From contig NZ_SMLB01000002.1 in NCBI RefSeq assembly GCF_004349105.1, positions 1 to 64,000 on the forward strand: 64,000 bases of DNA. The letters run 5' to 3'. Positions 35,308 through 53,017 of the stretch are shown one piece after another; positions within the stretch are counted from its first letter, which is position 1; every line of letters starts with the position of its first letter. Made by a program: the position numbers and the translations under genes. Source of the stretch: Jiangella aurantiaca (lineage in GTDB: Bacteria > Actinomycetota > Actinomycetes > Jiangellales > Jiangellaceae). The notes beneath the pieces were generated by a model. It ran no database searches and was not told where the DNA came from. It worked only from the letters and a program-made list of their open reading frames with translations.

Positions 35308-36234
35308 TCAGTGACTTGGGTATCCCGAGCGGGTGAGAGGCTCCTCGGCGGCATTCAGGTGACGGGCCAGCAGATCCACGGCCAGTCGATCCAGCGACAG
35401 CGACCCCGGTTCCCGAACGAATGTGCTGGTGAGAACACCGCGCATTCGGAGCACTTCCTTGCAGAAGGCCGCGCCGCCGTACTGGTCCTCCATCTCGACG
35501 AGCGGGAGCACCAGGCGATAGATGCGACCGGCGCGGTCGTGGTCGCCGCTCTCGAGCGCATCCCACAAGGCCACGTGCAGATCCGTGAACTCGCAGCCCG
35601 GCATCGTGCCGCAGATGCCACGCTGATACTCGTCGAGTGCGTATCGCGCCCCCTTTCCGCCCATGATCCCGAGAACTCCCGTTCCGGGCCGGCTGAGTAC
35701 CGCCGAGATCGTCTGACTGGAGAGACTCGATTCCTCCTTGATCCAGGACACCGCCTCGATCCGGTCGGCCAGCTCGAGGAGCTGACCCGGTGACAGCGGC
35801 GTGCCGGAGGGCCCGTCGGCGTTCTGCACGAACACCGGGAGGCCGCCACCGGCGTCGGCGATGGCCTCGAAGTATCCGACGGTCTCTGTCCACGTCGCGC
35901 GTTTCACGTAGGGCGGTACGGCGATGACGGCGTCCGCTCCCGCGTCGGCCGCGTGTTCGGCGAAGACCGCCGCCCCATGGATCGACGGCGCGGAGACGCC
36001 GGCGACGACGGGGACGCGTCCCGCAGTGGCCGCGACCGCGGTCTCCACGACGGCGCGTCGCTCGGCATCGCTGAGCGTGAAGAATTCGCTCACGACGACG
36101 GGAGTCACGAGGCCGTGGGCACCGGCGACGACGGAGAAGTCGACGACGCGCTCCAGCGCGGCGAGGTCGAGGTGGCCGGTCTCGGTGAACGGGGTCACCA
36201 GGACCGAGTACACCCCGCGGAACCCCGGCGTCAT
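35308..36234 (-). CDS. DapA-family aldolase/dehydratase for 2-keto-3-deoxy sugar acid
   Basis: 308 aa class I (beta/alpha)8 barrel. The Schiff-base lysine is Lys166 in SWIKEES; the substrate-carboxylate region is near VVSEFFTLS. Its ATG overlaps the stop of the dehydratase gene (ATGA). The IlvD/Edd-DapA pairing is the signature of non-phosphorylative sugar-acid catabolism, where the dehydratase makes a 2-keto-3-deoxy acid and this enzyme cleaves or dehydrates it. A true DHDPS in lysine synthesis is unlikely here. Candidate substrates are keto-deoxy derivatives of arabinonate, xylonate or galactonate. Confidence 0.85.
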   Translation of the reverse strand: MTPGFRGVYSVLVTPFTETGHLDLAALERVVDFSVVAGAHGLVTPVVVSEFFTLSDAERRAVVETAVAATAGRVPVVAGVSAPSIHGAAVFAEHAADAGADAVIAVPPYVKRATWTETVGYFEAIADAGGGLPVFVQNADGPSGTPLSPGQLLELADRIEAVSWIKEESSLSSQTISAVLSRPGTGVLGIMGGKGARYALDEYQRGICGTMPGCEFTDLHVALWDALESGDHDRAGRIYRLVLPLVEMEDQYGGAAFCKEVLRMRGVLTSTFVREPGSLSLDRLAVDLLARHLNAAEEPLTRSGYPSH

Positions 36235-38048
36235 GCAGTGGCCCCCGGTCGCGTGGACCGAAGGCCGACGAGGTCGGCGTCGGTCCGCAGCAGTTCGTCC
36301 TCGTCCGGTGTCGCGTACGGATCCCCGCCGTGCGGCTCGTCGCCGCTGCCGCCGACGAGGAAGTCCAGGTCGGCGCCTCGATCGGCTTGCAGCACGTGGT
36401 CCTCGTAGAGCCTGGCCCAGCCGCGCTCGAAGCGCCGGGGCCGCGCCGCGGCCGCCCGCCTCCGCCGCTGCAGCTCGGCGTCGTCTACCTCCAGCAAGAG
36501 GGTCCGCGCCGGCACGTCGAGCGCGATGACGTCGCCGGTCTCGACGAGGCCGAGCGGGCCGCCGGCGGCGGCCTCGGGTGCCACATGGAGGATGACAGTG
36601 CCGTACGCCGTGCCGCTCATGCGCGCGTCGGAGATACGGACCATGTCGTCCACGCCCCGCTCGAGCAGCTTGCGCGGGATCGGGAGATTGCCCACCTCCG
36701 GCATGCCGGGGTATCCCTTCGGTCCGCAGTTGCGCACCACGAGGACGGTGTTCTCGTCCACGTCCAGGTCCGGATCGTGGATCCGCGCTTCGCACTCCTG
36801 GATGGAGTCGAAGACCAGCGCGGGTCCGCGGTGGCGCATGAGTCCGGGGCTGGCGGCGGCCTGCTTGACGACTGCGCCGTCGGGTGCCAGGTTGCCGCGC
36901 AACACGGCGGTGCCCGCGCCGACGCCCAGCGGCCGGTCCAGCGGCCGGATCACGTCGTCGTCGAAGCACTCGGCCGCCGTCACGTTCTCCGCGAGTGTCG
37001 TGCCCGTCACGGTCAGCGCCTGGCCGGCGAGGTGGTCGAGCAGCCGTCGCATCAGGGCGGGCAGGCCGCCCGCGTGGTGGAAGTCCTCCATGTAGTGCTC
37101 ACCGGCCGGACGAAGGTTGGCCAGCCACGGCACGTCGCGCATCCACCGGTCGAAGTCGTCCAGTTCGAGCGGCACACCGGCGCGGCCGGCGATGGCGAGC
37201 AGATGGAGCACCGCGTTCGTCGACCCGCTGAGCGCGGCGTTCACCTTCACGGCGTTCTCGAACGCGCTGCGGGTGAGGATCCGCGACATCCGCAGATCCT
37301 CGTGGACCATGTCGACGATTCGTCGTCCAGCGCGGTGCGCGGCCTGCTTCCGGGCGGCCTCGGGTGCCGGGATCGACGACGTACCGGGGAGCTGCATGCC
37401 GAGCGCCTCCGCGACGCTCGCCATGGTCGAGGCCGTCCCCATCACCATGCAGTGGCCGGCGCTGCGCGCGTAGCATCCCTCGGCGGCGAAGAACTCCTCC
37501 GGCGCCATCCGGCCGGCCCGCACCTCGTCGGCGAGCTTGCGGGCGTCGGTGCCCGTGCCGAGCGTCCGGCCGCGGAATCGGCTGGTCAGCATCGGCCCAC
37601 CAGTGAACATCAGGGTCGGCAGGTCCACACTCGCGGCACCCATGAGCTGCGCCGGCGTCGTCTTGTCGCAGCCGCCCAGGAGCACGACGCCATCGACGGG
37701 GTTGGCCCGCAACGTCTCCTCCACGTCCATGCTCATGAGATTGCGGAAGAGCATCGTGGTGGGCAGCATGTTCGCCTCGCCCAGGCTGATCGTCGGGAAG
37801 ACGACCGGGACACCGCCGGCCTCCCACACGCCGCGCTTGACCGCCTCGGACACCTCGCCCAGATGGGCGTTGCACGGATTGAGGTCGGACTGGCTGTTGG
37901 CGATGCCGATCAGCGGCTTCCCGGATCGCAGCAGGCCGTCGGGGAACCCGAGGGCCTGCATGTGCCCGTTGCGGACCAACGCCTGCTGGTTGTAGCCGCC
38001 GTAGTACCGATTGCTGCGCAGGCGGCGGGACGTCCCTACTGGTGCCAC
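36231..38048 (-). CDS. IlvD/Edd-family sugar-acid dehydratase
   Basis: 605 aa from the GTG at 38048 with AAGGAG 10 nt upstream; the longer ORF start lies at the permease stop without a ribosome site. Cys residues expected for the Fe-S cluster are in LNPCNAH, GGCDKTT and GHCMVMG; the C-terminal domain has RISDARMSGTAYGTV. Family members dehydrate aldonates (arabonate, xylonate, gluconate) or dihydroxy acids. The coupled DapA-like gene and sugar importer favour a pentonate or hexonate. No sugar dehydrogenase is adjacent. Confidence 0.9.
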   Translation of the reverse strand: MAPVGTSRRLRSNRYYGGYNQQALVRNGHMQALGFPDGLLRSGKPLIGIANSQSDLNPCNAHLGEVSEAVKRGVWEAGGVPVVFPTISLGEANMLPTTMLFRNLMSMDVEETLRANPVDGVVLLGGCDKTTPAQLMGAASVDLPTLMFTGGPMLTSRFRGRTLGTGTDARKLADEVRAGRMAPEEFFAAEGCYARSAGHCMVMGTASTMASVAEALGMQLPGTSSIPAPEAARKQAAHRAGRRIVDMVHEDLRMSRILTRSAFENAVKVNAALSGSTNAVLHLLAIAGRAGVPLELDDFDRWMRDVPWLANLRPAGEHYMEDFHHAGGLPALMRRLLDHLAGQALTVTGTTLAENVTAAECFDDDVIRPLDRPLGVGAGTAVLRGNLAPDGAVVKQAAASPGLMRHRGPALVFDSIQECEARIHDPDLDVDENTVLVVRNCGPKGYPGMPEVGNLPIPRKLLERGVDDMVRISDARMSGTAYGTVILHVAPEAAAGGPLGLVETGDVIALDVPARTLLLEVDDAELQRRRRAAAARPRRFERGWARLYEDHVLQADRGADLDFLVGGSGDEPHGGDPYATPDEDELLRTDADLVGLRSTRPGATA

Positions 38049-38102
38049 GGTGTCAGAACTCCTTGTCGCTGTGATGGGGGCGGGGCCGGCGACGGCGGGC
38101 AC

Positions 38103-38927
38103 TCACTTGACGGCGCCGCTCGTCAGGCCGCTGATGAGCAGCGGCTCGAGCAGGATGAACAAGACCACCATGGGTGCGATCGACAGCAGGCCGGCGGCCA
38201 TGAGCGCTCCCCAGTCGGCGGTGTACTCGCCGACGAAGCTCACCAGTCCCACGGTCACGGTGGTTCCCGCATCGCCCTGGATGAGTGTCCTGGCGAAGGT
38301 GAAGTCTCCCCAAGCCAGAATGCCGGAGAAGATCGCGACCGCTCCGATCCCCGGCCTCGCCAGCGGCAGGACGATCGTCAGGAAGGACCGCAGCCTCGAG
38401 CAGCCGTCGACCATCGCGGCCTCTTCCAGCTCGACCGGGATGGAGTCGAAGAACGACTTCATCAGCCACGCCGCGAAGGGGACGATCACGACGGTGTTGG
38501 CGATCACCAGGCTGCGCAGCGTGTTGTTGAGCTCGACCTCGCTGAACATCATGAACAGCGGGATGACCAGGAGCGTCGTCGGTATCAGCCGGACGGCGAA
38601 CAAGCTGTACCCGACGATGAGGCCGACCTTCGAGGCCAGCCGCGAGAGGCTGTACCCCGCCATCGTCGCGAAGACGACCGAACAGACGACCGTCCCGGCC
38701 GTCACGGTGGCGGAATTGGCCATCCAGCGCCCCACCGGCCGGAGTTCGAAGACCCGTTGGAAGGAATCGAAGCTGATGGACCCGAGGTCAGGGAGCAACG
38801 GCGGTGACGGTGACAACAACTCCCGCGTCGGCAGGACGGCGGTCAGCGCCATCCAGTAGACGGGGAACAACAACACCACGATGATCGCCACGATCAGCGC
38901 GTAACGAACGACCATGCTTCTGCTCAT
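38103..38927 (-). CDS. Sugar ABC transporter permease, MalG type
   Basis: 274 aa from the ATG at 38927 with GAGGTGG upstream. The EAA loop is EEAAMVDGCSRLRSFLTIVLP; C-terminus GLTSGAVK. Shorter N-terminal tail than the other MalG proteins here. Separated from malF by 40 bp, whereas the other pairs overlap. Confidence 0.92.
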   Translation of the reverse strand: MSRSMVVRYALIVAIIVVLLFPVYWMALTAVLPTRELLSPSPPLLPDLGSISFDSFQRVFELRPVGRWMANSATVTAGTVVCSVVFATMAGYSLSRLASKVGLIVGYSLFAVRLIPTTLLVIPLFMMFSEVELNNTLRSLVIANTVVIVPFAAWLMKSFFDSIPVELEEAAMVDGCSRLRSFLTIVLPLARPGIGAVAIFSGILAWGDFTFARTLIQGDAGTTVTVGLVSFVGEYTADWGALMAAGLLSIAPMVVLFILLEPLLISGLTSGAVK

Positions 38928-38967
38928 GTCTCGACACCACCTCGGGGCCACGGAGTGCGGCAGGTCA

Positions 38968-39927
38968 TCAGAAGAAGCGCCGGCGGACGACGGGGAACAA
39001 TGCCAGGAGCGCTGACCCGGCCAGCGCCATCGTCACCACGCCGAGTGCGGACGCATGCGGGAGATCGAAGAAGCGGAAGGCCTGGTTGTAGATGGCCACG
39101 GCCAACGTCTGGGTCGCGCCGTCTGGACCGCCTCGGGTGATCGCGTACACGAAGTCGAACGTCGTGAAGGTCCACAGCCCGGTGACGATCATCGCCAGCA
39201 CGGCCGTGTTCTGCACCGCGGGCCACGTCACGTGGCGGAACTGCAACACGGGACCGGCTCCGTCGACCTTCGCCGCCTCGTACAGCTCGTCCGGTACCGA
39301 CTGCAGCGACGCGAGGAGCATGAGCGTGCACAGCGGGTACGCGCTCCAGACCGTCGGCATCAGGACGCCGATCAGCGCGGTCTGCGGATCGAAGAACCAG
39401 GCGATGTTCTCATCGATGACGCCGATCGCACGCAGCAAGTAGTTCACCACGCCGTAGGTGCCGTCGAGCATCCAGACGAAGCCGACGGTGGCGATCGATC
39501 CCGGGATCGGCCACGGGATGAGGATCAGTGTTCGAAGCCATCGCCGCCCGGGCAGCCGCCGGCGGATCAGCAGCGCGGTGACGAGCCCGACCACGATGGC
39601 TCCGGCCACCGCCGCCAGCGTGTACACCGCCGAGATCCGCAGCGAGTGCCAGGTCTCCGGGTCCGACAGCACGGTGTCGTAGTTGTCCAGGGTCAGTGGC
39701 AGGCCGCCGACCTCGCTCATGATCATCGTCTTGCCGTCGCGCAGGCTCAGGTTGACGATCATGTAGATCGGGAAGGCGATGAACACCAGCGACATCGCCA
39801 GCGAGGGCGCGAGCAGCACGTACGAGAGCAGGTTGTTGCGCGTCGACAGCGACGGACGCCACCGCGACCGCCTCGGTCCGCCGGTGTGCGCGCCGGCTCG
39901 TCGGCGGTCATCGGTGACCAGCGTCAT
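38968..39927 (-). CDS. Sugar ABC transporter permease, MalF type
   Basis: 319 aa. First helix LSYVLLAPSLAMSLVFIAFP. The EAA loop is YEAAKVDGAGPVLQFRHVTWP, followed by ITRGGPDGATQTL. Belongs to the importer whose operon carries the IlvD/DapA pair, so its cargo probably yields the sugar acid or its parent sugar. Confidence 0.92.
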   Translation of the reverse strand: MTLVTDDRRRAGAHTGGPRRSRWRPSLSTRNNLLSYVLLAPSLAMSLVFIAFPIYMIVNLSLRDGKTMIMSEVGGLPLTLDNYDTVLSDPETWHSLRISAVYTLAAVAGAIVVGLVTALLIRRRLPGRRWLRTLILIPWPIPGSIATVGFVWMLDGTYGVVNYLLRAIGVIDENIAWFFDPQTALIGVLMPTVWSAYPLCTLMLLASLQSVPDELYEAAKVDGAGPVLQFRHVTWPAVQNTAVLAMIVTGLWTFTTFDFVYAITRGGPDGATQTLAVAIYNQAFRFFDLPHASALGVVTMALAGSALLALFPVVRRRFF

Positions 39928-39997: not shown

Positions 39998-41308
39998 CTA
40001 CGGTTCGGTGATGGACGACAGCTCCGACTCCAGCTCGGTCAGCACGTCGACGGTCTCGGCATCGGTGGTCAGCAACCGCATCATCGCGTCGATGATCCGC
40101 GTCTCGATCTCGCCGAAGTTGGCACGGAAGTTGGCGCTGTCGGGGAACTCCGGCTGCGCGCTCCCGATGGTCTGCGCGACCACCTCCAGCTCGGGCCGCT
40201 CCTGGACGCGCTCCGGCGGGACCGATCCGGTGCGGCCAGGGGCGGCATCGATGGCGCCGGCCCACATGCCCTGGAACTCCGGTTCGGCGGCGATCTGGAT
40301 GAAGTCCCACACGAGATCCTTGCGTTCCTCGCTGATCCCGGCCGGAATCGACAACGAGGTGCCGACGAGGGCCACCGAGTTCTCGAACGGCGGCGGCGCG
40401 ACCTGGAGCTGCGGTCGCACATCGGCCGGCGACACCTCGTCGAGCGTCGAGATGACCCAGTTGCCGTCCTGCGACATGGCGATCCGCCCGTCCGCGAGCA
40501 GCTGCCGGTACCCGCCACCGTCCAGACCGGGTGGCGCCTGACGTGCCAGTTCGCGGTAGAGCTCCACAGCCTCGACGGTCTCCGGCGCCGTGACGCTCCA
40601 TTCGCCGTCGGTGATCCACTGGCTGCCCATGCCGACGATGAAGGCCGTCACCTCACCGAAGAGGTTGGAGTGGGTGGTCGTCGTGGCACCCCAAGGCGAC
40701 ACGCCCTCCTCGACGCTTCCGGCCAGCGCCTCCACAGTGTCGGCCAACTCGGACGGCGAGGTCGGTGGTGCGTCCACTCCGGCCGCGGCGAGGTAGTCCT
40801 CGTTGTAGTACAGCAGCCGGGTCAGTGCGTGCATCGTGAGAGCCAGGTGCTCGTCATCCACCACCCGCTCCTGCTGGAAGTCTTCCCACTCGTCCAGCAG
40901 ACCGCTCTCCTCGAGCCGGTCGTTCAGCGGCTCGAGCTGGCCGGTCTCGGCGAAGGCGTAGAAGTGGTTGCCCGATGCGATGATGTCCGGAGGGTCGCCG
41001 GCCGACAGCTGAGTGACGATCTGGTTCTGGAAGTCCTCGTTGCTGACCGGGTACATGTTGACGGTGACGCCCTCGTGCCGGCTCTCGAACTCCTCGACGA
41101 TGGCCCGCAGCGCCTCTCCGTGACCGGGCTCATTCGCCTGCCACGTCGGAAAGTCGAGCACGATCGAGCCATCCTCACCACCGTCCTCCGCCGTGCCGTC
41201 TCCGCCGCTACACGCGGCGAGAAGCACGGCGGCGCCTACAAGGGCTACAGCGCGCTGCGCGTGACCCCAGCGAACGGTGACGCGGCCCGCCGACGATCGG
41301 TCATTCAT
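39998..41308 (-). CDS. Sugar-binding lipoprotein of the IlvD/DapA operon
   Basis: 436 aa. A basic N-terminus, hydrophobic core RAVALVGAAVLLAAC and lipobox LLAAC near residue 32, then a Gly/Asp/Glu linker. Family-1 SBP with DPPDIIASG, the common sugar-binding-lobe motif. First gene of a six-gene operon ending with the secreted esterase. Its promoter at about 41730 carries the GNGANCGNTCNC motif shared with the galactanase and GH1 blocks. A leader of about 410 nt separates that promoter from the ATG; I see no gene in it. Confidence 0.9.
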   Translation of the reverse strand: MNDRSSAGRVTVRWGHAQRAVALVGAAVLLAACSGGDGTAEDGGEDGSIVLDFPTWQANEPGHGEALRAIVEEFESRHEGVTVNMYPVSNEDFQNQIVTQLSAGDPPDIIASGNHFYAFAETGQLEPLNDRLEESGLLDEWEDFQQERVVDDEHLALTMHALTRLLYYNEDYLAAAGVDAPPTSPSELADTVEALAGSVEEGVSPWGATTTTHSNLFGEVTAFIVGMGSQWITDGEWSVTAPETVEAVELYRELARQAPPGLDGGGYRQLLADGRIAMSQDGNWVISTLDEVSPADVRPQLQVAPPPFENSVALVGTSLSIPAGISEERKDLVWDFIQIAAEPEFQGMWAGAIDAAPGRTGSVPPERVQERPELEVVAQTIGSAQPEFPDSANFRANFGEIETRIIDAMMRLLTTDAETVDVLTELESELSSITEP

Positions 41309-41816: not shown

Positions 41817-41883
41817 TTGACATGCGGTTTCCCCGTGAGCCAGACTCCCTGCACATCACGCAGAGCGGCTGCACATTGCGCAG
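41817..41883 (+). promoter_or_regulatory. GH53 promoter with two IclR-type operators
   Basis: TTGACA (41817-41822), 18 bp, CAGACT (41841-41846). Directly after the -10 lie CTGCACATCACGCAG (41849-41863) and CTGCACATTGCGCAG (41869-41883), both fitting CTGCR-N5-CGCAG, with starts exactly 20 bp apart, i.e. on the same DNA face. The same paired arrangement precedes the iclR gene. Position over the start region suggests repression. No gene is seen in 41884-42023. Confidence 0.75.
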
Positions 41884-42023
41884 CCCCTCGGTGATGAGCC
41901 TCTGCCCGGTCACCGGGGAGAGGGATTTGCGGAGCCCGCCGATGTGCACATCGGGCCCGCTGGGCGCGACGGTCGATCACCCATCTCCTTCCAGATCAAT
42001 GACGACTCGAATTGGAGTGGATA

Positions 42024-44432
42024 ATGGCAAGGAACCGTCCGATCCGCACCTTTGTGAGTGTGGCCGCAGCACTAGCTGTAGGCGCCGCATCAGGCGGCGC
42101 CACTACTCCGGCGGCCGCACTATTCGGCGACGTCGAGATCAAGCCGATCGAGAGCAACATCGCGGAAAGACCGTGGGCTTCTGTCGAGGCAGGCAGCGGC
42201 GCCGATTCAAGCAGACTGGCGATCGACCAGAACGCCGATACGGCGTGGATTGCCGCAGACTCCGGTGCGCAGTGGCTGACGCTCGATCTCGGTGGAATCT
42301 ACGACAACATCCGCAAGGTCGAAGTCGTATTCCCGGACTCCGGCGCGGTTTACCAGTACGTGGTCGAGGCCTCGGGTGACGGCGACGACTGGACGGTGAT
42401 CGCCGACCGGTCGGACAACGCCGCCCCCGGCCGAGGCGGAGTCGAGCTGTTGACCCGTCCGGACACCCGCTACATCCGCGTGACGATCACAGGGACGTCG
42501 CCGGGGGCGACCGTCGGCGTGAGCGAGATCAGCGCCTACAACTACCTCCGCGACGATGTCGTGCTGGGTGCCGATCTGTCCTATATCGACGACTTCCAGA
42601 ACCGTCAGTACTGGGTACATCCGCTGGAGGAGGATCGCGGGGCCGGACCGTTCCTGCTGGACGTCGCCCAGGACCGCGGCATGGAGCTCGTTCGCCTGCG
42701 GATCTTCAACGAGCCCCGCAGTGAGTCATCGGGCAGTCCGGTCAATCCCCCGCGCCAGGGGCCGGAGCGCTCTCTCCAGTCGGCGAAATGGATCAAGGAG
42801 CGCGGGCTCGAACTGGCCATCGACTTCCACTACTCGGACTCGTGGGCAGACCCTGGCAAGCAGGCCAAGCCGCGAGCATGGGCCGAGCTCCCGTTCGACG
42901 AACTGGTGGATGCCGTCTACGGCTACACCCACGACTACATCCGCCAGCTGGTCGACCAGGGCACGACACCGGACAAGGTGGCGATCGGCAACGAGGTCAA
43001 CAACGGCTTCCTGTGGGGCAGCGAGGCCGCTGGCATGACCACCGGCCCGGTGGTCGGGACGGCGAACCCGGCCTATTTCCGCAACCAGCCCGGGATCTAC
43101 CAGTCCCAGCCCGGTGGTGGCCTGCTGTGGCCGTACATGAACTCGGACGACCCGGTCGAGCAGCGACTGTACTCGGAGGCCTTCGACCGCTTCGCCGAGT
43201 TGCAGGCCGCCGGTATCCGCGCCGTACGGGACGCCTCTCCGTCGACGCTGGTCGAGATCCACTCGCTGACCGGCAGCGGCATCGGCCCGGTCGTCGGCCC
43301 GGGTGTGGGCAACCAGGAGATCAGCGGCATCGAGAAGGCGATGGAGATGTGGAGCCAGACGCTTTCTCGCCTCGAGGACGAGCACGGTGTGTTCCCGGAC
43401 ATCATCGGCCAGTCCTACTACCCCGAGTACCACGGGACGATGGAGCAGCTCGAGCACAACCTGCACACCGTCGCCTCGGCATACCCAGAGGTTCAGCTCG
43501 TGGTCGCCGAGACGTCCTACCCGGCCTCGGGCGGTGGTGGCGCACCCATGCCGAACGCGATCTACCCGCGGACGATCCAAGGCCAGGCAGACGCCATCCA
43601 GCGGGTGTTCCAGGCCACCAACGACGTCATCAACAACCAGGGCAAGGGCGTCCTGACCTGGGAGCCGGCCAGCTGGCAATCGATGTTCCGGTCCGTGCCG
43701 GGCATGGCGAACACCTTCGAGCCGCACAGCTCGATCGACATCTACAACAAGAGCCGCGCCACGCACGTCATGGAGGACCGCGTCTATCGGACCGTGCTGG
43801 TCGGCGCCGAGCCGGCGCTGCCCGAGACGGTGCAGGTGCTGACCACCGCTGACGGCTCGATCGCCTCAGTCCCAGTCGACTGGGACGAGGTGTCTGCCGA
43901 CGGTACCGACACAACCGGTCGGGTCGCGGTCTCCGGCTCGACCGAGTTCGGCGGGGTCACCGCGCTCGTGGACGTCATCGACGACTACGTGACCCCGGCG
44001 TGCGGCGAGAGGGTGTCCGGGCGGCACCTCGGTCCGCTGACCATCGACTCCGGTGTCACCTGTATCGAGCGGGCGACGATCGCCGGGCCGGTCACCGTCG
44101 GTCCGGGCGCGTCGGTCGTGATCACCAACGGCCAGGTCACCGGCCCGGTGACCTCGCAGGGGGACGGCGTGGTCGTGGTCTGCGGCACTCGAGTGACGGG
44201 CCCCCTCACCATCCAGCGCGCATCATCGGTGACCCTTGGCAATCCCATCGTCGGCTGCGAGCCGAACACGGTGACCGGGCCGGTCTCTGTCAACGACGTG
44301 TCGGGGTGGAACGTGATCGCGGGCAACCGGATCACTGGTCCACTGGCCTGTTCAGGGAACGATCCAGCGCCGGTCAACAACGGCTCGATCAACACGGCTG
44401 GGCGCAAGAGTGGCCAGTGCGCCGGGCTCTAG
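42024..44432 (+). CDS. ganA: Secreted GH53 endo-beta-1,4-galactanase with GPV module (copy 2)
   Basis: 802 aa from the ATG at 42024 (GGAGTGG upstream). Signal peptide to about residue 36, F5/8-type binding domain (about 45-175), GH53 barrel from VVLGADLSYID, acid/base Glu324 in AIGNE, nucleophile Glu496 in VVAETS, Big_4-like domain (about 560-655). Residues 660-802 are the Cys-rich GPV-repeat module also found in the GH3 and in copy 3. Close to copy 3 in every domain except a longer loop TTGPVVGTANPAYF and the segment LTGSGIGPVVGPGV. Under paired IclR-type operators and followed by GH2. Confidence 0.93.
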   Translation: MARNRPIRTFVSVAAALAVGAASGGATTPAAALFGDVEIKPIESNIAERPWASVEAGSGADSSRLAIDQNADTAWIAADSGAQWLTLDLGGIYDNIRKVEVVFPDSGAVYQYVVEASGDGDDWTVIADRSDNAAPGRGGVELLTRPDTRYIRVTITGTSPGATVGVSEISAYNYLRDDVVLGADLSYIDDFQNRQYWVHPLEEDRGAGPFLLDVAQDRGMELVRLRIFNEPRSESSGSPVNPPRQGPERSLQSAKWIKERGLELAIDFHYSDSWADPGKQAKPRAWAELPFDELVDAVYGYTHDYIRQLVDQGTTPDKVAIGNEVNNGFLWGSEAAGMTTGPVVGTANPAYFRNQPGIYQSQPGGGLLWPYMNSDDPVEQRLYSEAFDRFAELQAAGIRAVRDASPSTLVEIHSLTGSGIGPVVGPGVGNQEISGIEKAMEMWSQTLSRLEDEHGVFPDIIGQSYYPEYHGTMEQLEHNLHTVASAYPEVQLVVAETSYPASGGGGAPMPNAIYPRTIQGQADAIQRVFQATNDVINNQGKGVLTWEPASWQSMFRSVPGMANTFEPHSSIDIYNKSRATHVMEDRVYRTVLVGAEPALPETVQVLTTADGSIASVPVDWDEVSADGTDTTGRVAVSGSTEFGGVTALVDVIDDYVTPACGERVSGRHLGPLTIDSGVTCIERATIAGPVTVGPGASVVITNGQVTGPVTSQGDGVVVVCGTRVTGPLTIQRASSVTLGNPIVGCEPNTVTGPVSVNDVSGWNVIAGNRITGPLACSGNDPAPVNNGSINTAGRKSGQCAGL

Positions 44433-44470
44433 GCCATTCGACGACCCAGACAACCCCGAGCACAGCATTC

Positions 44471-44485
44471 CTGCGGAATGCGCAG
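44471..44485 (+). promoter_or_regulatory. IclR-type operator before GH2
   Basis: CTGCGGAATGCGCAG fits CTGCR-N5-CGCAG exactly, 170 bp before the GH2 ATG and 38 bp after the GH53 stop. A degenerate half site (CACAG) lies 20 bp upstream, keeping the spacing seen at the other two locations. Confidence 0.65.
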
Positions 44486-44654
44486 CCGGTGCCGATGTCG
44501 AGCGGAGGAGACGCTGGCCGTCGAGCCCGCCCGGCCGACTGGCCTCCTCCGCCCGCACCTCTGCTCCTCCTGTCGCTACCGCCGAGGCGGCGGCTCCATC
44601 CACGCCGCTCAAGCGCACGTCATCCAGTCCGGCTCAAGGGAAGGAAGTAGATTC

Positions 44655-47168
44655 ATGAGTGATCAGACAGTGGGCACCAAAGGCGCGACGCGGCGCCAGC
44701 TGCTCAGAGGAGGGGCGGGCCTCGGCATGGGCCTCCTCGCGGCCGGTGTCGTTCCCGAGATCACAGGCGCCTCAGTCGCACGCGCGGCCGACGACGCGAC
44801 GCAGGAAGGTCGCCAGCGCGCCACCTTCGATTTCGGCTGGAAGTTCGTCCGCGGCGATCAGGACGGCGCCCAGGACCCGGCCTTCGACGATGCCGGCTGG
44901 CAGGACGTCGACCTTCCGCACGACTGGAGCATCGAAGGGCCACTGAGTGCCAGCGAGCCGTCAGGAGGGCCGGGTGGCTGGGTGCCGACCGGCATCGGCT
45001 GGTATCGCAAGCGTTTCACCGTGCCCAGCTCGCGGCCCGGCCACCGGTTCGTGATCGACTTCGACGGCGCCTACCAGAGAAGTACCGTCTGGATCAACGG
45101 ACACGAACTGGGTCACCGCCCTTACGGTTACGTCCCGTTCGCCTACGACCTGACCCCGCATCTCGTCGACGGCGACAATGTCATCGCTGTACGAGTGGAC
45201 AACTCCCGCCAGCCGAACAGCCGGTGGTACTCCGGCTCCGGGATCTACCGGCACACCTGGCTGACCGCGATGCACGACGTCCATGTCGGCCAGTGGGGCA
45301 CTCAGGTGATCGTGGAGCACGCCGCCGCCGAGACGGCCACCCTGCAGATCAGGACCAGAGTGCAGAACGAGGGCAGCCGCCCCCTTCAGGTCTTCCTGCA
45401 GACCGACCTGGTGGACGCGGAGGGACGCACGGTCGCGACGGTCGAGTCGTCCAAGACCATCCCGCACGGGAACGAGCACACGTTCCGCCAGCAGCTCGAC
45501 GTCGACGACCCCGAGTTGTGGACCGTGGACGATCCGGTGATGTACACGGTCAAGAGCACGGTCCGGACCCGGCCTGGCCCTGGCGGCGAGGCGCTCGGCG
45601 TCGTGGACGTCTACCTCACCCCGATCGGCATCCGGACCGCCGTCTTCGACGCGGACCGGGGCCTGCTGATCAATGGCCAGCAGGTCAAGATGAACGGGGT
45701 CAACCTTCACCACGACGGCGGCCTGGTCGGCGCCGCGGTCCCCGAGGGCGTCTGGGTCCGTCGCTTGGGAATCCTCAAGGAGATGGGGTGCAACGCGGTC
45801 CGGACGGGCCACACGCCGTTCGCCACCGAGGTCCTCGATCTCTTCGATCGCATGGGCTTCCTCGTGATGAACGAGGTGTTCGACGAGTGGAAGGCGCCCA
45901 AGCCGCAGGTGGCGCCGAACGGTTACAGCGCCTACTTCGAGGAGTGGTTCGAGCGCGACGTGGTCAACGTCGTGCACCGCGACCGCAACCACCCTTCGGT
46001 GGTGATGTGGAGCGCTGGCAACGAAGTCGCCGACCAGTCCCCCGAGGGAGACCCGAACGGGCATGTCACGCTACGGCGGCTCAACGAGGTGTTCCACCGC
46101 GAGGACCCGACGAGGTTGGTGACGGTCGGGTGCGACCGGATGGGACACGAGCGACCCGGAGCCGCCACTACCGACGAGTTCATCGCCGAGATGGACATCA
46201 TCGGCTACAACTACTGCAACCGCTGGCGCAACCGCGCCCATCTGTACATGGAGGTCGACCGCGAGAAGTGGGGCCACAAGCCCATGGTCGGCAGCGAGAG
46301 CTCGAGCATGACCACGAACCACAGCCTCGACGTCGAGAACCAGTACAAGTTCATCTCGACGCGTGACTACGCGTCCGGAGACTTCATGTGGACCGGAGTC
46401 GACTATCTCGGCGAGACGTCCTCACCCAACAGTCGGGGCTTCGGCGGAGGCGTGCTGAACCTGTGCGGGTTCAAGAAGAACGGCTACCACTTCTACCAGA
46501 GCCAGTGGACCGAAGAGCCGATGCTCTACCTCTTCCCGCACTGGAACCAGAACGTCCCGGTGGGACGGCTCGTCTCCGTCCGGTGCTTCACGAACTGCGA
46601 CTCGGTGGAGCTGTTTCTCCACGGCCGGTCGCTTGGTGTCAAGGGGTACTGGCACCCGGCAATCGGCATGATCGAGTCGTTCGGCAACTACCCGCCGGAG
46701 CGGAGCACCCCTCGCACCACCTCGGATCTCAGTCTCGTCTGGGACGTCCCGTACGAGCCGGGCACGCTCCGAGCCGTGGGGCGCAAGCTCAACGATGTCG
46801 CGGTGACGACGGAGCTCTCGACGACCTCAGCGCCTGCGGCCGTCAGGCTCTCGGTGGATCGGGACGAGATCACCGCCGACCGGCGCGATGTGGCGCATGT
46901 CGTCGCCGAGATCGTGGACGCCGACGGACTCGTGGTCCCCACCGCCAGCAACCGGGTCACCTGGTCGGTGAGCGGGCCGGTGACCTATCTCGGATCGGAC
47001 AACGGCAACATGTCCGATCTGCAGGACTACCGGCTCACCGAGCGGAACGCCTTCCAGGGCAGGCTGCTGGCGATCCTCCAGGCGCAGGACGAGTCTGGCG
47101 AGGTCACGGTGAGCGCCACCGCGCCCGGGCTCGCGGGGGCAACCGCCCAGTTCCGCGTAGACGGGTAG
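44655..47168 (+). CDS. Tat-exported GH2 beta-galactosidase
   Basis: 837 aa from the ATG at 44655 (AAGGAAG 10 nt upstream). Twin-arginine signal ATRRQLLRGGAGLGMGLLAAG, so folded export is predicted. The GH2 sugar-binding jelly roll starts near residue 50 (DFGWKFVRGD; LPHDWSIEGP), then the Ig-like domain and the barrel with acid/base Glu457 in SAGNEVAD and nucleophile Glu548 in GSESSS. A DUF4982-like domain (VWDVPYEPGTLRAVG) and a final Ig-like domain follow. Releases galactose from galacto-oligosaccharides made by GH53 on the outside. Beta-glucuronidase or other GH2 activity is possible. Confidence 0.9.
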   Translation: MSDQTVGTKGATRRQLLRGGAGLGMGLLAAGVVPEITGASVARAADDATQEGRQRATFDFGWKFVRGDQDGAQDPAFDDAGWQDVDLPHDWSIEGPLSASEPSGGPGGWVPTGIGWYRKRFTVPSSRPGHRFVIDFDGAYQRSTVWINGHELGHRPYGYVPFAYDLTPHLVDGDNVIAVRVDNSRQPNSRWYSGSGIYRHTWLTAMHDVHVGQWGTQVIVEHAAAETATLQIRTRVQNEGSRPLQVFLQTDLVDAEGRTVATVESSKTIPHGNEHTFRQQLDVDDPELWTVDDPVMYTVKSTVRTRPGPGGEALGVVDVYLTPIGIRTAVFDADRGLLINGQQVKMNGVNLHHDGGLVGAAVPEGVWVRRLGILKEMGCNAVRTGHTPFATEVLDLFDRMGFLVMNEVFDEWKAPKPQVAPNGYSAYFEEWFERDVVNVVHRDRNHPSVVMWSAGNEVADQSPEGDPNGHVTLRRLNEVFHREDPTRLVTVGCDRMGHERPGAATTDEFIAEMDIIGYNYCNRWRNRAHLYMEVDREKWGHKPMVGSESSSMTTNHSLDVENQYKFISTRDYASGDFMWTGVDYLGETSSPNSRGFGGGVLNLCGFKKNGYHFYQSQWTEEPMLYLFPHWNQNVPVGRLVSVRCFTNCDSVELFLHGRSLGVKGYWHPAIGMIESFGNYPPERSTPRTTSDLSLVWDVPYEPGTLRAVGRKLNDVAVTTELSTTSAPAAVRLSVDRDEITADRRDVAHVVAEIVDADGLVVPTASNRVTWSVSGPVTYLGSDNGNMSDLQDYRLTERNAFQGRLLAILQAQDESGEVTVSATAPGLAGATAQFRVDG

Positions 47169-47196
47169 CCGTGGACACCCACTAGGCCGGGTGATC

Positions 47197-47240
47197 GCGA
47201 TGGGAGGGGCTCGACATGGGTCGGGAGCCCCTCCCATCGC
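47197..47240 (+). terminator. GH2 terminator hairpin
   Basis: Perfect 16-bp stem GCGATGGGAGGGGCTC / GAGCCCCTCCCATCGC with a 12-nt loop, 28 bp after the GH2 stop and before the iclR promoter region. Confidence 0.85.
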
Positions 47241-47304
47241 CGGCGACCGCGCATTGAAGGGCGGCCATCGCATCGCCCGGTCTCAGAGCCGCTACCCACG
47301 GCTC

Positions 47305-47339
47305 CTGCGCGATTCGCAGGGCAGCTGCAATTAGCGCAG
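47305..47339 (+). promoter_or_regulatory. Paired IclR-type operators before iclR
   Basis: CTGCGCGATTCGCAG (47305-47319) and CTGCAATTAGCGCAG (47325-47339) fit CTGCR-N5-CGCAG with starts exactly 20 bp apart. TAGAGT (47345-47350) is a possible -10; no convincing -35 was found. Implies autoregulation of the IclR protein. Confidence 0.7.
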
Positions 47340-47479: not shown

Positions 47480-48226
47480 ATGACGCAGTCGGTTCATCGT
47501 GCCGCGGAGACGCTGATGTTCGTCGCTGAACGGCCGCGGAGCGTCGGCGAGGTCGCGCAGCGATTGGGGGTCCATTCGACCACCGCCCTGCGGATCCTCC
47601 ACGCGCTGCACAGCTGGCGGTTGCTGGACCGTCGGCCCAACGGGACCTACCGTCTCGGCGCGGCAGTCATGGAGCTCGGACAGCGAGCGCTGGAGTCGAT
47701 CGACATCCGCGACGTCGCCTTGCCGTTCATGCGCGATCTGAACCAGGCCACTGGAGAGACCGTCCACCTGGCGATCCTGGAGAACGGCCATGTCGTCTTC
47801 ATCGAGAAGATCGAGAGCCAGCACCCGGTGCGGATGTACTCGCGCATCGGCCTGATCGCGCCGTTGCACTGCACCGGCGTATCGAAGGCGATACTGGCTC
47901 AGTTGCCGCCTGCCGAGTTGGACGCGCTGATCGACGCGGCAGACCTGACGGCGTACACGCAGCACACGCTCACCACAGCCGATGCCCTTCGAGCCGACCT
48001 GAAGCTGACGAGATACCGAGGTTTCGCGGTTGACGAGCAGGAGCATGAGCTGGGTATCCGATGCGTCGCGGCCCCGATCATGCACGCCGATGGCCGAGTG
48101 GCGGCCTCGTTGAGCGTATCGGCGCCCGGCGTGCGGGTCAGCAAGAGAAGGCTCATGGAGTTCGTTGCGCCCTTGCAACGGGCTGTCAAAGGCGCGGAGG
48201 CAGAGCTGGGACGGCAGCCAGGCTGA
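47480..48226 (+). CDS. IclR-family transcriptional regulator
   Basis: 248 aa, normal for the family. N-terminal winged HTH: RPRSVGEVAQRLGVHSTTALRILHAL (about 15-40), wing at NGTYRLG, then a GAF-like effector domain with VHLAILENGHVVFIEKIES and PLHCTGVSKAILA, the typical ligand-pocket blocks. Located after GH53 and GH2 on the same strand, with matching paired operators at its own promoter and in front of both. Predicted regulator of extracellular galactan breakdown; the effector is unknown. Confidence 0.92.
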   Translation: MTQSVHRAAETLMFVAERPRSVGEVAQRLGVHSTTALRILHALHSWRLLDRRPNGTYRLGAAVMELGQRALESIDIRDVALPFMRDLNQATGETVHLAILENGHVVFIEKIESQHPVRMYSRIGLIAPLHCTGVSKAILAQLPPAELDALIDAADLTAYTQHTLTTADALRADLKLTRYRGFAVDEQEHELGIRCVAAPIMHADGRVAASLSVSAPGVRVSKRRLMEFVAPLQRAVKGAEAELGRQPG

Positions 48227-48258: not shown

Positions 48259-50328
48259 TCATCCCGTAGCACCGCTGGGCCGGACGCGGGCCGTCGGCGG
48301 TGCGGATCTGGTGGCCATCGAGATGACCGGCGTCCCTCCGGCCGGTTGAGCACCAGTGGTTCTCGCCGGAGGATCCAGCGGTCCCTGCACCACCGTGTAT
48401 CCGTACGGCTCCAGCCGCAACTCGGTGACCGGCACGTCGTCGAGCACGTGGCCGGAGCCCAGCGCCACCACGCGCGCCTGCTCACCGTGGTTGATGACCA
48501 CGAGGTGCTCGCCGGCACGGATCGCCTCCACGTCGGGATGGGCGGCCGCCAGCACGCCGGTCACTCCGGCGCGCGCGAAGACGTGGCGGGTGACCGCCTG
48601 CATGCCGTGATCGTCCGGCAGGGTGGCGAGGTAGTAGGCGGCGCCCACCCCGGCGAGATGCCGCGTGAAGGCGGGCCGGTCCTCGGCCCGTCCGGTGCTG
48701 AACCGGGCCAGGACCGTCGCACCGGCAGGCTCGATCTCCTCGGCGTAAGTCGTGCCGGTGTGGTCGGAGCCGTCGAGCCGGAAGGAGACGCGGCTCCGGC
48801 CGGGCAGCGCACCGAAGTCCTCCAGCCGGATGCCGAGCGTCGGTCCGAGCTGGGTGAGGAAGCCGCCCTCGCGGAAGGCATCGTGCTCGTCGACGATGTC
48901 GGTGAAACCGGCGACCAGGAGATGACCGCCGCCTCGGACGTAGCCGGCGAGGTTGGCAGCGGCCGCCGCTGGCAGGAGGTACTGCACGGGCGCGAGGACG
49001 ACGTCGTAGGCGGACAGGTCGTGGTCGGCCTTGCGGATGTCGACCTGGACGTGCTGGCGGTGGATGGCCGCGTACCAGCGCACGACGATGTCGGTGTAGT
49101 CCAGCTCGACCGGGTGGTCGGGGTTGCTCACCGCCCACAGGTTGTCCCAGTCGAACAGCAGCGCCACCCGCACGTCGGCGGCCGTCATGGCGATCTCCGG
49201 TAGCCGCGTCAGTTCCGCGCCGAGCCGCACGACCTCACGCCACGTGCGGGTCTGCGTACCGGCGTGCGGCAGCATCGCCGAGTGGAACTTCTCGCTTCCG
49301 GACCGGGACTGACGCCACTGGAAGAACATGACGCCGCCTGCTCCACGCGCGACGGCCTGCATGCTGAGTGCGGCCATCTGTCCAGGGGCCTTGGGCGCGT
49401 TGGCCGGCCGCCAATTGACCGCGTTCGTGGCCTGTTCCATGAGGACCCAGGGCTTGCCGCCGCCGAGTGAGCGCATCAGGTCCCGGGTGAACGCCGCTCG
49501 GCGGAACGACTCCGGGTCAGCCGGGTCGGGATAGCTGTCGTCTGCGATGAGGTCGAGCTCGTCGGCCCAGCGCCAGTAGTCCAGCGCGGGGAACGGACCC
49601 ATGAAGTTCGTCGTGACGGGCTGGGTCGCGCCGGAGGCGGCGATGGCCTCGCGCTCCATGACGAGCAGTTCGAGCGTCGCGTCGGAGGTGAAGCGGCGGA
49701 AGTCGAGCAGGGCGGCCGGGTTCTGGCTGTACGGGGCGGAGCGCGGCGGCAGGACCTGTTCGAACGAGGTGTAGCGCTGCGACCAGAAGTCGGTGCCCCA
49801 GGCGGTGTTGAGCGTGCCGATGTCGCCGTACCGGCGGTGCAGCCACCCCTGGAACGCGTCGCGGGCGTTGTCGGAGTAGTCGTAGGGGACGTGGCAGCCG
49901 TACTCGTTGTTGACGTGCCACATGACCACGGCCGGGTGACCGGCGTATCGCCCGGCGATCGTCGTCACCAGCTCGAGCGCCAGGCGCCGGTACACCGGCG
50001 ACGTCACCGCGTAGTGCTGCCGGCTGCCGGGCCACAGCACGGTGCCGTCGGCCAGCTGAGGCAGCATCTCGGGATAGCGGTGCGTGGCCCATGGCGGCGG
50101 CGAGGCGGTGGCGGTCGCCAGGTTCACGGCGACGCCGTGGGCGTGCAGGATGCCGATGACCTCGTCGAGCCAGCCGAAGTCGAACTCGCCCTCGGCGGGC
50201 TGGATACGGGACCAGGAGAACATGCCGAGGCTCACGAGGTTGACGCCCGCGGCCCGCATGAGCTCCGCGTCTCGGGGCCAGAGTTCGGAGGGCCACTGCT
50301 CGGGGTTGTAGTCGCCTCCGTAGTACAC
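48259..50328 (-). CDS. ganB: GH42 beta-galactosidase
   Basis: 689 aa, cytoplasmic. GTG start 5 nt after AGGAGG. N-terminus YYGGDYNPEQWPSELW, acid/base Glu142 in HVNNEYG, nucleophile Glu in WVLMEQATNAVNW near residue 300, then the trimerisation domain and a C-terminal beta domain. It hydrolyses imported galacto-oligosaccharides. Last gene of the GH53-permeases-SBP-lacI-GH42 operon, as in the ganSPQAB logic of other bacteria. It converges on iclR with a 32-bp gap. The C-terminal tail (about 20 aa) is Pro/Thr-rich and variable. Confidence 0.93.
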   Translation of the reverse strand: MYYGGDYNPEQWPSELWPRDAELMRAAGVNLVSLGMFSWSRIQPAEGEFDFGWLDEVIGILHAHGVAVNLATATASPPPWATHRYPEMLPQLADGTVLWPGSRQHYAVTSPVYRRLALELVTTIAGRYAGHPAVVMWHVNNEYGCHVPYDYSDNARDAFQGWLHRRYGDIGTLNTAWGTDFWSQRYTSFEQVLPPRSAPYSQNPAALLDFRRFTSDATLELLVMEREAIAASGATQPVTTNFMGPFPALDYWRWADELDLIADDSYPDPADPESFRRAAFTRDLMRSLGGGKPWVLMEQATNAVNWRPANAPKAPGQMAALSMQAVARGAGGVMFFQWRQSRSGSEKFHSAMLPHAGTQTRTWREVVRLGAELTRLPEIAMTAADVRVALLFDWDNLWAVSNPDHPVELDYTDIVVRWYAAIHRQHVQVDIRKADHDLSAYDVVLAPVQYLLPAAAAANLAGYVRGGGHLLVAGFTDIVDEHDAFREGGFLTQLGPTLGIRLEDFGALPGRSRVSFRLDGSDHTGTTYAEEIEPAGATVLARFSTGRAEDRPAFTRHLAGVGAAYYLATLPDDHGMQAVTRHVFARAGVTGVLAAAHPDVEAIRAGEHLVVINHGEQARVVALGSGHVLDDVPVTELRLEPYGYTVVQGPLDPPARTTGAQPAGGTPVISMATRSAPPTARVRPSGATG

Positions 50329-50399
50329 ATGGCCTCCTGCGGTCGGGACCGGGCTCGGGCGCGCGGCCGGTGAGCGTGGTCGTTCGTGGCGAGCGGCGA

Positions 50400-51413
50400 T
50401 CAGACGGAGCCGCCTCCGCTGCTCTCCCGTTCGATGAGCTCGGGGTCGAACGCGATCTGCTTGACGGCGGAGTCGGCGTTGGCCAGCCGCTCGATCAGCA
50501 GCTCCGCGGCGCTCTGTCCCATGGCGAGAGCGGGCTGGCGGACGGAGCTGAGCGGAACACTCGTGTTCGCGGCGAAGTCGCTGTCGTCGTAGCCCACGAT
50601 GGCGACGTCGCCGGGAATGCGCAGCCCGGCACGCAGCAGCGACTGCATGAGGCCGATCGCTTCCATGTCGCTGGCCGCGAAGACGCCGTCGGGGCGCTCG
50701 CCGGCCGGCATTGCCGCGATGCGGTCGCCGGTCTCACGTCCGACGCGCAGGCCGACACCGTCGCCCTCTCGCACGGTGAGCGTGGCTCCGCCGGCCGCCG
50801 CCACCGCCTCGCGGCACCCGGCCAGCCGGTCGGCGTTCTGGCGAACACCGAGGGGACCACCGACGAACCAGATGCGGGTGCGGCCGATCGCGATCAGGTG
50901 CTCGGTGGCGAGCCGTCCTCCGCCGACGTCGTCGAGCCAGACCGAGTCGAAGTCGCCGGCGTCGTCACGGGCGTCGAGAAGGACGACCGGGACGCCTCGT
51001 TGATGCAGCCGGTGCATTGCCGAGAGGTCGTGGGTCACCGGAGTGACCAGAACGCCGTCGACGCGATACTGCTCGAAGTTGGCCAGGTGGCGGGCCTGGC
51101 GGGCCACCGATTCGTAGCTGTTGCCGACCATCACCGACAGGCCGGCCCGCTCGGCGACGGTCTCGGCGCCGAAGATCACCTGGTTGAAGAACGGGATGGC
51201 CGTGTTGAACACGGCCATCCCGATGGTGCCGCTGCGCACACCACGCAACTGGCGCGCGGGCAGGTTGGGCACGTAGCCGAGAGTCTCGATCGCCGCGCGG
51301 ACGCGGGCCGCCGAGGCGGCGCCCACGCGTTCGGGACGATTGAGCACGTTCGAGACGGTGCTCACCGATACTCCGGCCAGCGCAGCGACCTCTCGGATGC
51401 CGACGGTACCCAC
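50400..51413 (-). CDS. ganR: LacI-family repressor of the GH42/GH53 operon
   Basis: 337 aa. HTH: IREVAALAGVSVSTVSNVL, hinge with RPERVGAASAARVRAAIE, effector domain from TIGMAVFNTAIPFFNQVI. The GTG start follows TGAGG. Encoded inside the galactan operon between the binding protein and GH42, so it would report on its own operon. The AAACGTTT site at 57681, next to the GH53 promoter, is the best operator candidate. Symbol given by analogy only. Confidence 0.92.
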   Translation of the reverse strand: MGTVGIREVAALAGVSVSTVSNVLNRPERVGAASAARVRAAIETLGYVPNLPARQLRGVRSGTIGMAVFNTAIPFFNQVIFGAETVAERAGLSVMVGNSYESVARQARHLANFEQYRVDGVLVTPVTHDLSAMHRLHQRGVPVVLLDARDDAGDFDSVWLDDVGGGRLATEHLIAIGRTRIWFVGGPLGVRQNADRLAGCREAVAAAGGATLTVREGDGVGLRVGRETGDRIAAMPAGERPDGVFAASDMEAIGLMQSLLRAGLRIPGDVAIVGYDDSDFAANTSVPLSSVRQPALAMGQSAAELLIERLANADSAVKQIAFDPELIERESSGGGSV

Positions 51414-51611
51414 CGTTGCCTCACTCTCATCTTGCCGCGCAGATCTCGACGGCCGGTCGCCGCCGAGGCCTGTGCGCCGACGGGCGACGAGCGGGTCGCC
51501 CGGTCTCCCTCATCTCGCACGGCTCCGGATGCCGGAGCGATTCATGGTGTCCTCCAGTGACATCATGATGGTCCTGCGGGGCTTTCCTGAACGCCCAGCC
51601 CGGCCCGGTGA

Positions 51612-51637
51612 CGCTGCGCGGCTTCGGACACGCAGCG
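51612..51637 (-). terminator. Weak hairpin after binding-protein gene
   Basis: CGCTGCG and CGCAGCG pair around a 12-nt loop, 30 bp past the binding-protein stop in the 254-bp gap before lacI. Stem is only 7 bp. The same gap holds the short palindrome CATCATGATG (51561-51570). Confidence 0.35.
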
Positions 51638-51667
51638 CCCCAGGACCCGTCGCAACGCCTCGGCTCG

Positions 51668-53017
51668 TCAGCCTCCGGCGACGGGGATCGCCTGGGACTC
51701 CAGCGCCTCGATGGTCTTCTGCTGCCCGGTCTCAAGCGCCTCGACCAACGTGCCGGTTCCGTTGATGGCGGCGGCGAATCCGTCGCCGATGTCGCTGTAG
51801 GTCTGCGTCATGGTCGGGCCCCACGGGAAGTCGGGGTTGACGTTCTGTGCCGCCTCGGCGAAGACCTCGGCGATGACTTGTCCGCCGAAGAACTCCTCCG
51901 GCTGGTTGAGCTGCGGAAGCTGCTGCCCGGCCGTCGTCGCCGGGTAGAGTCCGCCGAGCTCGTTGAGCGCGGCCAGCGCCTCCTCGCTGGTGTTCAGCCA
52001 GAGTGCGAACTGCGCCGCCTCGTGCGGGTGCTCCGTCGAGGACGTGACCGCGGCCGTCGAGCCGCCCCAGTTGCCGGCCGCGTTCGTGCCCTCCGTCCAT
52101 TGGGGCATCGGCGCGACCGCCCAGGCTCCGGCGCTCGCCGCCGCGTTCTGCTCGATGAGCGCGTTGCCCCAGTACGGGCTCACCCAGGTCCAGACCTCGC
52201 CGGTCTCGAGCGCCGCCCACCACTCGTCGGACCAGGACGCCATCGGTCGGGCGAGGTCCTCGTCCAGCATCCGCTGCCAGTACTCGGCGACCTGCACCGA
52301 CTCGGGGCCGGTGAAGTCCACCGTCCATTCGCCGTCGGCCACGGAGAACCACGATCCGCCGGCCTCCCACACCTGGCCGAGGAACCAGTTCACGTCGCTG
52401 TCGGAGAAGTGGTGGATGTGGCCGCCCTGTGCCTGGATCACCTTGGCCGCCTCGTAGTAGTCCTCCCACGTCGCCGGCGGCTCGATGCCGGCAGCGGCGA
52501 ACAGGTCGGCGCGGTACCACATGCCGATGGGGCCGGTGTCCTGCGGGATGGCGTAGACCGCGTCGTTCTCGCCGAAGGTGACCTGCTCCCAGGTCCAGTC
52601 GATGAACTCGTCCTGCGCGTCCATCACCCCGGCGCAGTCCGCGAGGTTGACGAGGGCGTCTTGGAGACGGAAGTTGGCCAGTGCGTCGTACTCGATCTGA
52701 GCGAGGTCAGGCGCGTTGCCGGCCTCGATGCCGTTGAAGAAGGTCTGGTAGGCGTCGATCCCGGTGGGCCCGGTGACGAACTCGACCTGGATGTCGGGGT
52801 TCTGCTCGTTCCAGAGCTCGACCACCTGGTCCATACCGGGCACCCAGGAGTAGTACTCCAGGGTGACCGGTTCACCGGCGGGCTCGCAGGAGCCGCCGCC
52901 ACCGCCCTGGTCGTCACCGCCCTCGGCCGCGGTGTCGTCGTCGCTGCAGCCGGCCAGGACCAGCGCTCCTGCCAGGGACAGCACAGTCAGCCCGGCTGCC
53001 CGTCGTGTCCGTCGCAT
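51668..53017 (-). CDS. ganS: Sugar-binding lipoprotein of the galactan operon
   Basis: 449 aa. Signal with lipobox LVLAGC near residue 24, then an Asp/Glu/Gly linker. Family-1 SBP. It follows both permeases, the reverse of the usual order, and precedes lacI and GH42. Predicted receptor for galacto-oligosaccharides made by GH53, from context. Related to the SBP at 25090-26418 in the GH1 operon. Confidence 0.88.
   Translation of the reverse strand: MRRTRRAAGLTVLSLAGALVLAGCSDDDTAAEGGDDQGGGGGSCEPAGEPVTLEYYSWVPGMDQVVELWNEQNPDIQVEFVTGPTGIDAYQTFFNGIEAGNAPDLAQIEYDALANFRLQDALVNLADCAGVMDAQDEFIDWTWEQVTFGENDAVYAIPQDTGPIGMWYRADLFAAAGIEPPATWEDYYEAAKVIQAQGGHIHHFSDSDVNWFLGQVWEAGGSWFSVADGEWTVDFTGPESVQVAEYWQRMLDEDLARPMASWSDEWWAALETGEVWTWVSPYWGNALIEQNAAASAGAWAVAPMPQWTEGTNAAGNWGGSTAAVTSSTEHPHEAAQFALWLNTSEEALAALNELGGLYPATTAGQQLPQLNQPEEFFGGQVIAEVFAEAAQNVNPDFPWGPTMTQTYSDIGDGFAAAINGTGTLVEALETGQQKTIEALESQAIPVAGG

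Follow-up and report, generated by a model that had tools for sequence, protein, structure and literature searches.

Suvorova and Gelfand (2021, PMC8222616) record tandem IclR palindromes with 18-22 bp between their centres for 94 ortholog groups, and the sites of group 1 share the consensus core CRY-W3-RYG; galactan degradation goes unmentioned in the sections consulted. IclR-family regulators have been predicted for galactose and galactoside loci: in Rhodobacteriaceae isolates the neighbours of an IclR transcription factor include enzymes of galactose oxidation, a galactosidase and a CUT1 ABC transporter, and galactonate has been proposed as the effector of the IclR-type GalR of isolate HL-109 (PMC5507952). 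In B. subtilis and in Thermotogales the described galactan regulators belong to the LacI family: GanR controls the gan operon of the former (PMC5472308), GalR the galactan genes of the latter (PMC3750489). These cases, together with the LacI genes found alongside the other GH53 loci of Jiangellaceae, make it fair to regard LacI proteins as the usual galactan regulators, as the first-pass annotation of the present locus had done. Searching the open-access literature with the terms galactan, GH53 and polysaccharide utilization, we found no IclR galactan regulon described.

The window analysed here, a stretch of 64,000 nucleotides from the soil actinobacterium Jiangella aurantiaca, carries a cluster with the following predicted features:

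33274-35202, minus strand: esterase-like secreted protein, with weak PHB-depolymerase/esterase similarity
35248-35282, minus strand: degenerate double palindrome (three mismatches), 46 bp ahead of the esterase-like gene
35308-36234, minus strand: DapA-family aldolase/dehydratase (PF00701, 7.9e-37)
36231-38102, minus strand: IlvD/Edd-family sugar-acid dehydratase (PF00920, 2.9e-111; PDB 8ej0, 9evv)
38103-38951, minus strand: ABC transporter permease (BPD_transp_1)
38968-39927, minus strand: ABC transporter permease (BPD_transp_1)
39998-41308, minus strand: ABC transporter solute-binding protein, divergent from GH53 (SBP_bac_1, 7.2e-30)
41817-41822, plus strand: predicted -35 element TTGACA of the GH53 promoter, conserved ahead of the operator in four genomes
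41849-41883, plus strand: double-palindrome operator before GH53, CTGCACATCACGCAG-AGCGG-CTGCACATTGCGCAG, directly after the predicted -10
42024-44432, plus strand: secreted GH53 endo-beta-1,4-galactanase (P0002) with an F5/8-type C domain (PF07745, 1.4e-59)
44471-44485, plus strand: single palindrome CTGCGGAATGCGCAG between GH53 and GH2, a pattern match
44655-47168, plus strand: GH2 beta-galactosidase-like enzyme with a twin-arginine-type N terminus (Glyco_hydro_2 domains)
47305-47339, plus strand: double-palindrome operator before iclR, present there in all five ortholog-carrying genomes
47480-48226, plus strand: IclR-family regulator (P0001), 248 aa, with a KdgR-like ligand domain (Pfam, phmmer)

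The regulator combines the IclR helix-turn-helix (HTH_IclR, 7.9e-07) with the IclR_C effector domain (1.8e-52), both above the curated Pfam cut-offs, which places it in the IclR family. Among its nearest solved ligand domains is that of E. coli KdgR (1ysp; 2.9e-32 by phmmer), with which it has the stretch RMYSRIG in common; it scores 165 bits against the KdgR equivalog NF011671 (NCBIfam; cut-off 275), and we hence call it KdgR-like, not KdgR. The GH53 protein supplies the endo-beta-1,4-galactanase expected of a galactan-utilisation locus, its closest solved relatives being the PDB galactanases 7osk and 1r8l. It also contains GNE and AETS, presumably its catalytic-site motifs. The closest PDB matches of the GH2 protein are the beta-galactosidases 4ypj and 8q2h. 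The IlvD/Edd protein falls into the PRK06131 subfamily above cut-off and appears to lie near the L-arabinonate dehydratases (804 bits against a model cut-off of 882), and the best solved match of the DapA-family protein, at moderate similarity, is the L-2-keto-3-deoxyarabonate dehydratase 7c0c (4.3e-35); because equivalog cut-offs were missed, the substrates of both enzymes are uncertain. L-arabinose and D-galactose have the same configuration at C2-C4, so that either sugar of arabinogalactan could feed this pathway. The esterase-like protein, which has no Pfam match and meets NF050058 below cut-off (1.3e-10), perhaps deacylates the side chains of galactan. A KDG kinase was not seen among the genes of the cluster.

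The first-pass annotation had reported five CTGCR-N5-CGCAG sites, at 41849, 41869, 44471, 47305 and 47325, with exactly 20 bp between the members of the GH53 and iclR pairs, and a pattern search of the window recovered the same coordinates and the same spacing. The right arm of its motif is better written YGCAG: in the symmetrised matrix built from all pairs, position 11 of the 15-mer is split about evenly between C and T, and the centre is A/T-rich. The motif as corrected is CTGCR-N5-YGCAG. Counted over both strands, the 15-mer pattern matches the window 10 times, where dinucleotide shuffles give 1.0 +/- 1.3 and none of 100 shuffled windows reached 10, and the 35-mer pair was absent from all 300 simulated windows. 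The remaining distinct 15-mer places of the window, 14093 and 18347, both lie within ORFs. Missed in the first reading was the degenerate pair at 35248-35282, which aligns with a pair that has one mismatch and precedes the esterase-like gene of a second Jiangella (G010; L069:17245) and is, judging by that alignment, its decayed counterpart; three-mismatch pairs in the J. aurantiaca genome are mostly spurious, this one alone having a known orthologous counterpart. The single GH2 site is common to J. ureilytica (L050:6992), and alignment of the GH2 promoter shows the palindrome to be absent from G010, the third Jiangella.

A genome scan with the 15-mer, as the first-pass annotation had envisaged, proved unspecific, whereas the pair is specific. 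In the 6.62-Mb genome the 15-mer pattern gave 76 forward and 83 reverse matches, and of 19 places checked elsewhere in the genome 18 fall within genes; with about a hundred genomic matches, mostly intragenic, the 15-mer alone was ruled out as a regulon signal. Exact matches to the 35-mer CTGCR-N5-YGCAG-N5-CTGCR-N5-YGCAG, on the other hand, all lie in or beside the IclR/GH53/GH2 cluster, and by this comparison of sequences the true signal is the 35-mer, not the 15-mer. Across five genomes all perfect pairs (n=11) and both one-mismatch pairs have the 20-bp spacing. Matrix and alignment show fixed palindrome arms with a variable centre and a variable 5-bp linker, the pattern expected of a protein-binding site.

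The comparison covered 22 genomes of the family Jiangellaceae and 395 of the class. Orthologs of the regulator are found in four other Jiangellaceae (G015, 94% identity; G010, 86%; G016, 73%; G017, 72%), the remaining genomes of the family having only IclR paralogs of at most 43% identity; a protein search of genome contigs with the regulator found J. ureilytica alone. In the tree the five orthologs form one clade (support 100/99), joined to other clades by long branches that leave its sister group unsure. The exact 35-mer is present in 5/5 ortholog-carrying Jiangellaceae genomes versus 0/17 others of the family (Fisher p = 3.8e-5, a value that is indicative since the genomes are related), and none of the 373 other genomes of the class contains it. 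All five ortholog-carrying genomes have the double palindrome in the iclR promoter, and no such 35-mer pair stands at any of 25 IclR paralog loci from Jiangellaceae. The link between regulator and operators, which had been drawn from adjacency, is thus backed by their co-occurrence, by the conservation of the iclR promoter in 5/5 genomes, and by the core of the motif: positions 4-12 of the 15-mer read C-R-Y-A-W-T-R-Y-G, in agreement with the group-1 core of PMC8222616.

Membership of the predicted regulon varies between genomes. In G016, which belongs to another genus, a perfect pair precedes each of four units, namely the operon of solute-binding protein, transporter, IlvD and DapA genes (the solute-binding protein ortholog having its own pair at L070:7716), iclR, GH2-esterase, and GH53, and a one-mismatch pair precedes an unlinked esterase-like gene whose product is 30% identical to that of the window over 267 aa. 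All three Jiangella species have perfect pairs before GH53 and iclR, and two of the three have the single palindrome before GH2; the GH53 pair occurs in the same place in three genomes besides that of J. aurantiaca. In both G010 and G016 homologs of the esterase-like protein are encoded behind operator pairs, and in the region examined of G017 only iclR, GH2 and one pair are kept. No operator stands near the start of the transporter operon in any of the three Jiangella species; for the window, a matrix scan that included weaker sites gave none near the transporter start at 41308, and with the nearest pair, that of GH53, about 540 bp from the operon start, the operon is at most a candidate for direct control in Jiangella. 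The regulon would hence comprise GH53, GH2, iclR and the esterase-like gene, joined in at least one genus by the transporter/dehydratase operon. The regulon of the first-pass annotation is supported by these data, its extent having been understated by the transporter/IlvD-Edd/DapA operon and the esterase-like gene. Its weak points are the single site at GH2 and the three mismatches of the esterase pair in the window.

At GH53 the predicted -35 (TTGACA at 41817) and a weak -10, CAGACT, are followed by the pair; the earlier placement of the pair right after the -10 box is plausible, in that TTGACA is kept in four genomes, while the -10 is weak and the promoter a predicted one. At iclR the -10-like hexamer TAGAGT directly follows the pair, and the -35 would thus lie under the operator. 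Repression fits both arrangements. We posit, with a probability of about 0.82 for the explanation as a whole, that the IclR protein (47480-48226) is a local, autoregulated repressor acting through paired operators on a galactan-utilisation regulon. Two IclR dimers, that is a tetramer, would sit on one 35-bp operator, the two 15-bp palindromes with centres 20 bp apart facing the same side of the DNA; operators just downstream of, or overlapping, the predicted GH53 and iclR promoters would then block RNA polymerase. Operators, spacing, conservation, IclR co-occurrence and gene content come from the sequence and its comparison; from these we infer direct binding, tetramer formation and repression rather than activation, and likewise the nature of the inducer. 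The products so controlled would be the secreted GH53 galactanase, the GH2 beta-galactosidase, the esterase-like protein, the oligosaccharide-type ABC transporter, the sugar-acid dehydratase and the DapA-family enzyme.

Could these palindromes be functionless accidents of GC-rich DNA, as the hundred or so mostly intragenic genomic copies of the 15-mer might suggest? The confinement of the 35-mer pairs to ortholog-carrying genomes, at orthologous positions and with 20-bp spacing in 11/11 perfect pairs, leaves this a negligible prospect, and chance was ruled out on cross-genome conservation. It is also very unlikely, though less so than chance, that another regulator binds the sites and the local IclR protein is a bystander. 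A LacI gene (50400-51413) does lie about 2 kb downstream of iclR, and the genome encodes several more IclR paralogs, but the 35-mer tracks the IclR ortholog and was never found without it in the genomes scanned; in the 20 kb examined of G017, where the IclR gene, GH2 and one pair are kept, BLAST recognised no LacI gene; the scan gave no operator within the LacI gene cluster; a separate variant palindrome with an outer T:A pair, TTGCACTATACGCAA, accompanies the nearest IclR paralog; and the core of the motif fits IclR group 1. On this cross-genome evidence the LacI explanation was rejected.

The manner of control is less firmly fixed. Some IclR proteins, such as PcaU and PobR, are activators, and P0001 resembles the PcaU/PobR-type model, below its cut-off; the regulator acting at GH53 as an activator, or as activator and repressor both, nevertheless seems unlikely to us given operators that lie downstream of the predicted -10 of GH53 and overlap the predicted -35 region of iclR, as would suit repression. 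Returning to the proposed repressor, it is most likely KdgR-like and released by a 2-keto-3-deoxy sugar acid from the regulated pathway, probably the product of the regulated dehydratase, as for KdgR. We propose this induction on the strength of the KdgR-like ligand domain and of the next IclR relatives (43-52% identity), which, where inspected, lie mostly behind KDG-kinase-like genes; several of them have tandem pairs of the related palindrome NTGCR-N5-YGCAN, spaced 20-21 bp. Small acids are bound by IclR ligand domains such as that of KdgR, and this, the KDG-kinase-like neighbours of the closest relatives and the presence in the cluster of a dehydratase that would make such an acid speak against a galacto-oligosaccharide or galactose as the inducer, as for GanR and GalR. 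That alternative, which we consider doubtful though the likeliest of those weighed here, has in its favour the galactanase and oligosaccharide-type transporter encoded in the regulon and the fact that beta-1,4-galactobiose is the GanR inducer in B. subtilis (PMC5472308). At somewhat under even odds, we suggest a secreted-galactanase regulon switched by a downstream oxidative metabolite (a 2-keto-3-deoxy sugar acid) through a KdgR-like IclR protein, not by the galacto-oligosaccharide itself; it would have evolved in Jiangellaceae from a regulator of KDG metabolism and would operate alongside the LacI-linked galactan loci of this part of the chromosome.

Related loci were seen in the same survey. 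Among Streptomyces-like and other genomes of the class (L080-L096), IclR relatives lie directly behind KDG-kinase-like genes, several with upstream tandem TTGCR-N5-YGCAA-type palindromes 20-21 bp apart; these loci are a candidate actinobacterial KDG regulon. An IclR paralog group (L041:2252, which is G000:C25 near 146850, and L029-L032) has the conserved single palindrome TTGCACTATACGCAA at several loci, in L041 some 17 bp ahead of the gene; T:A rather than C:G as the outer pair may act as a specificity switch separating the paralogs. Three related GH53 genes (28945-30828, 42024-44432 and 55018-57387; 48-59% pairwise identity) occur within 30 kb, one under IclR operators and the other two with LacI-family genes within a few kb. 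The stretch 48259-57387 encodes GH42, LacI (50400-51413), a solute-binding protein, two permeases and GH53, without the 35-mer, and this LacI-type locus is conserved in G010 (L069/L122). In G016 about 8 kb separate a different IclR paralog (L120:16832-17608; 37% identity) from a LacI-linked GH53/GH42 locus.

Thus, we regard the cluster as a well-supported case of an IclR tandem-operator regulon conserved in Jiangellaceae. It offers a testable assignment of regulator, operator and substrate in a poorly studied actinobacterial family, in which related galactan loci separated by a few kilobases would be served by two regulator families, and it suggests how a regulator of sugar-acid metabolism may be recruited to a polysaccharide regulon with its tandem-operator design kept; annotation of IclR proteins would improve, and general ideas of gene control would stay unchanged. 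The paired-operator design is already known for IclR proteins, and it is galactan as the controlled food source that is unusual for the family. The 20 bp between centres fall within the 18-22 bp range of PMC8222616, two-turn spacing being usual for IclR proteins, a precedent understated by the first-pass annotation; the outer arm here is CTG in place of the GKTY start of the group-1 consensus; and the TphR site TTGCGCATAGCGCAA is nearly the same palindrome, the outer base pair here being C:G. The enterobacterial KdgR, with its pectin/KDG regulon, is likewise an IclR-family regulator of plant cell-wall polysaccharide breakdown and likely shares a 2-keto-3-deoxy acid ligand, but its motif is of the GAAAC/GTTTC type (group 2) rather than CTGCR-N5-YGCAG, and its substrate is pectin rather than galactan. 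The DeLey-Doudoroff loci with IclR-type GalR (PMC5507952) similarly combine an IclR transcription factor with a galactosidase and an ABC transporter; they are predictions from another phylum and concern alpha-galactosides and galactonate, in contrast to the secreted beta-1,4-galactanase found here. The LacI-linked GH53/GH42 loci of Jiangellaceae (for example window 48259-57387; G018, G020) unite GH53, an ABC transporter and a beta-galactosidase in one locus, but with a LacI regulator and GH42 and without the 35-mer operator. GanR, finally, acts as a local repressor on genes for galactanase, beta-galactosidase and transport by binding repeated inverted repeats, and differs in its LacI fold, its motif AGTAAA-N4-7-TTTACT and its galactobiose inducer (PMC5472308); in the present cluster the regulator is instead an IclR protein, the LacI gene belonging to the neighbouring cluster.
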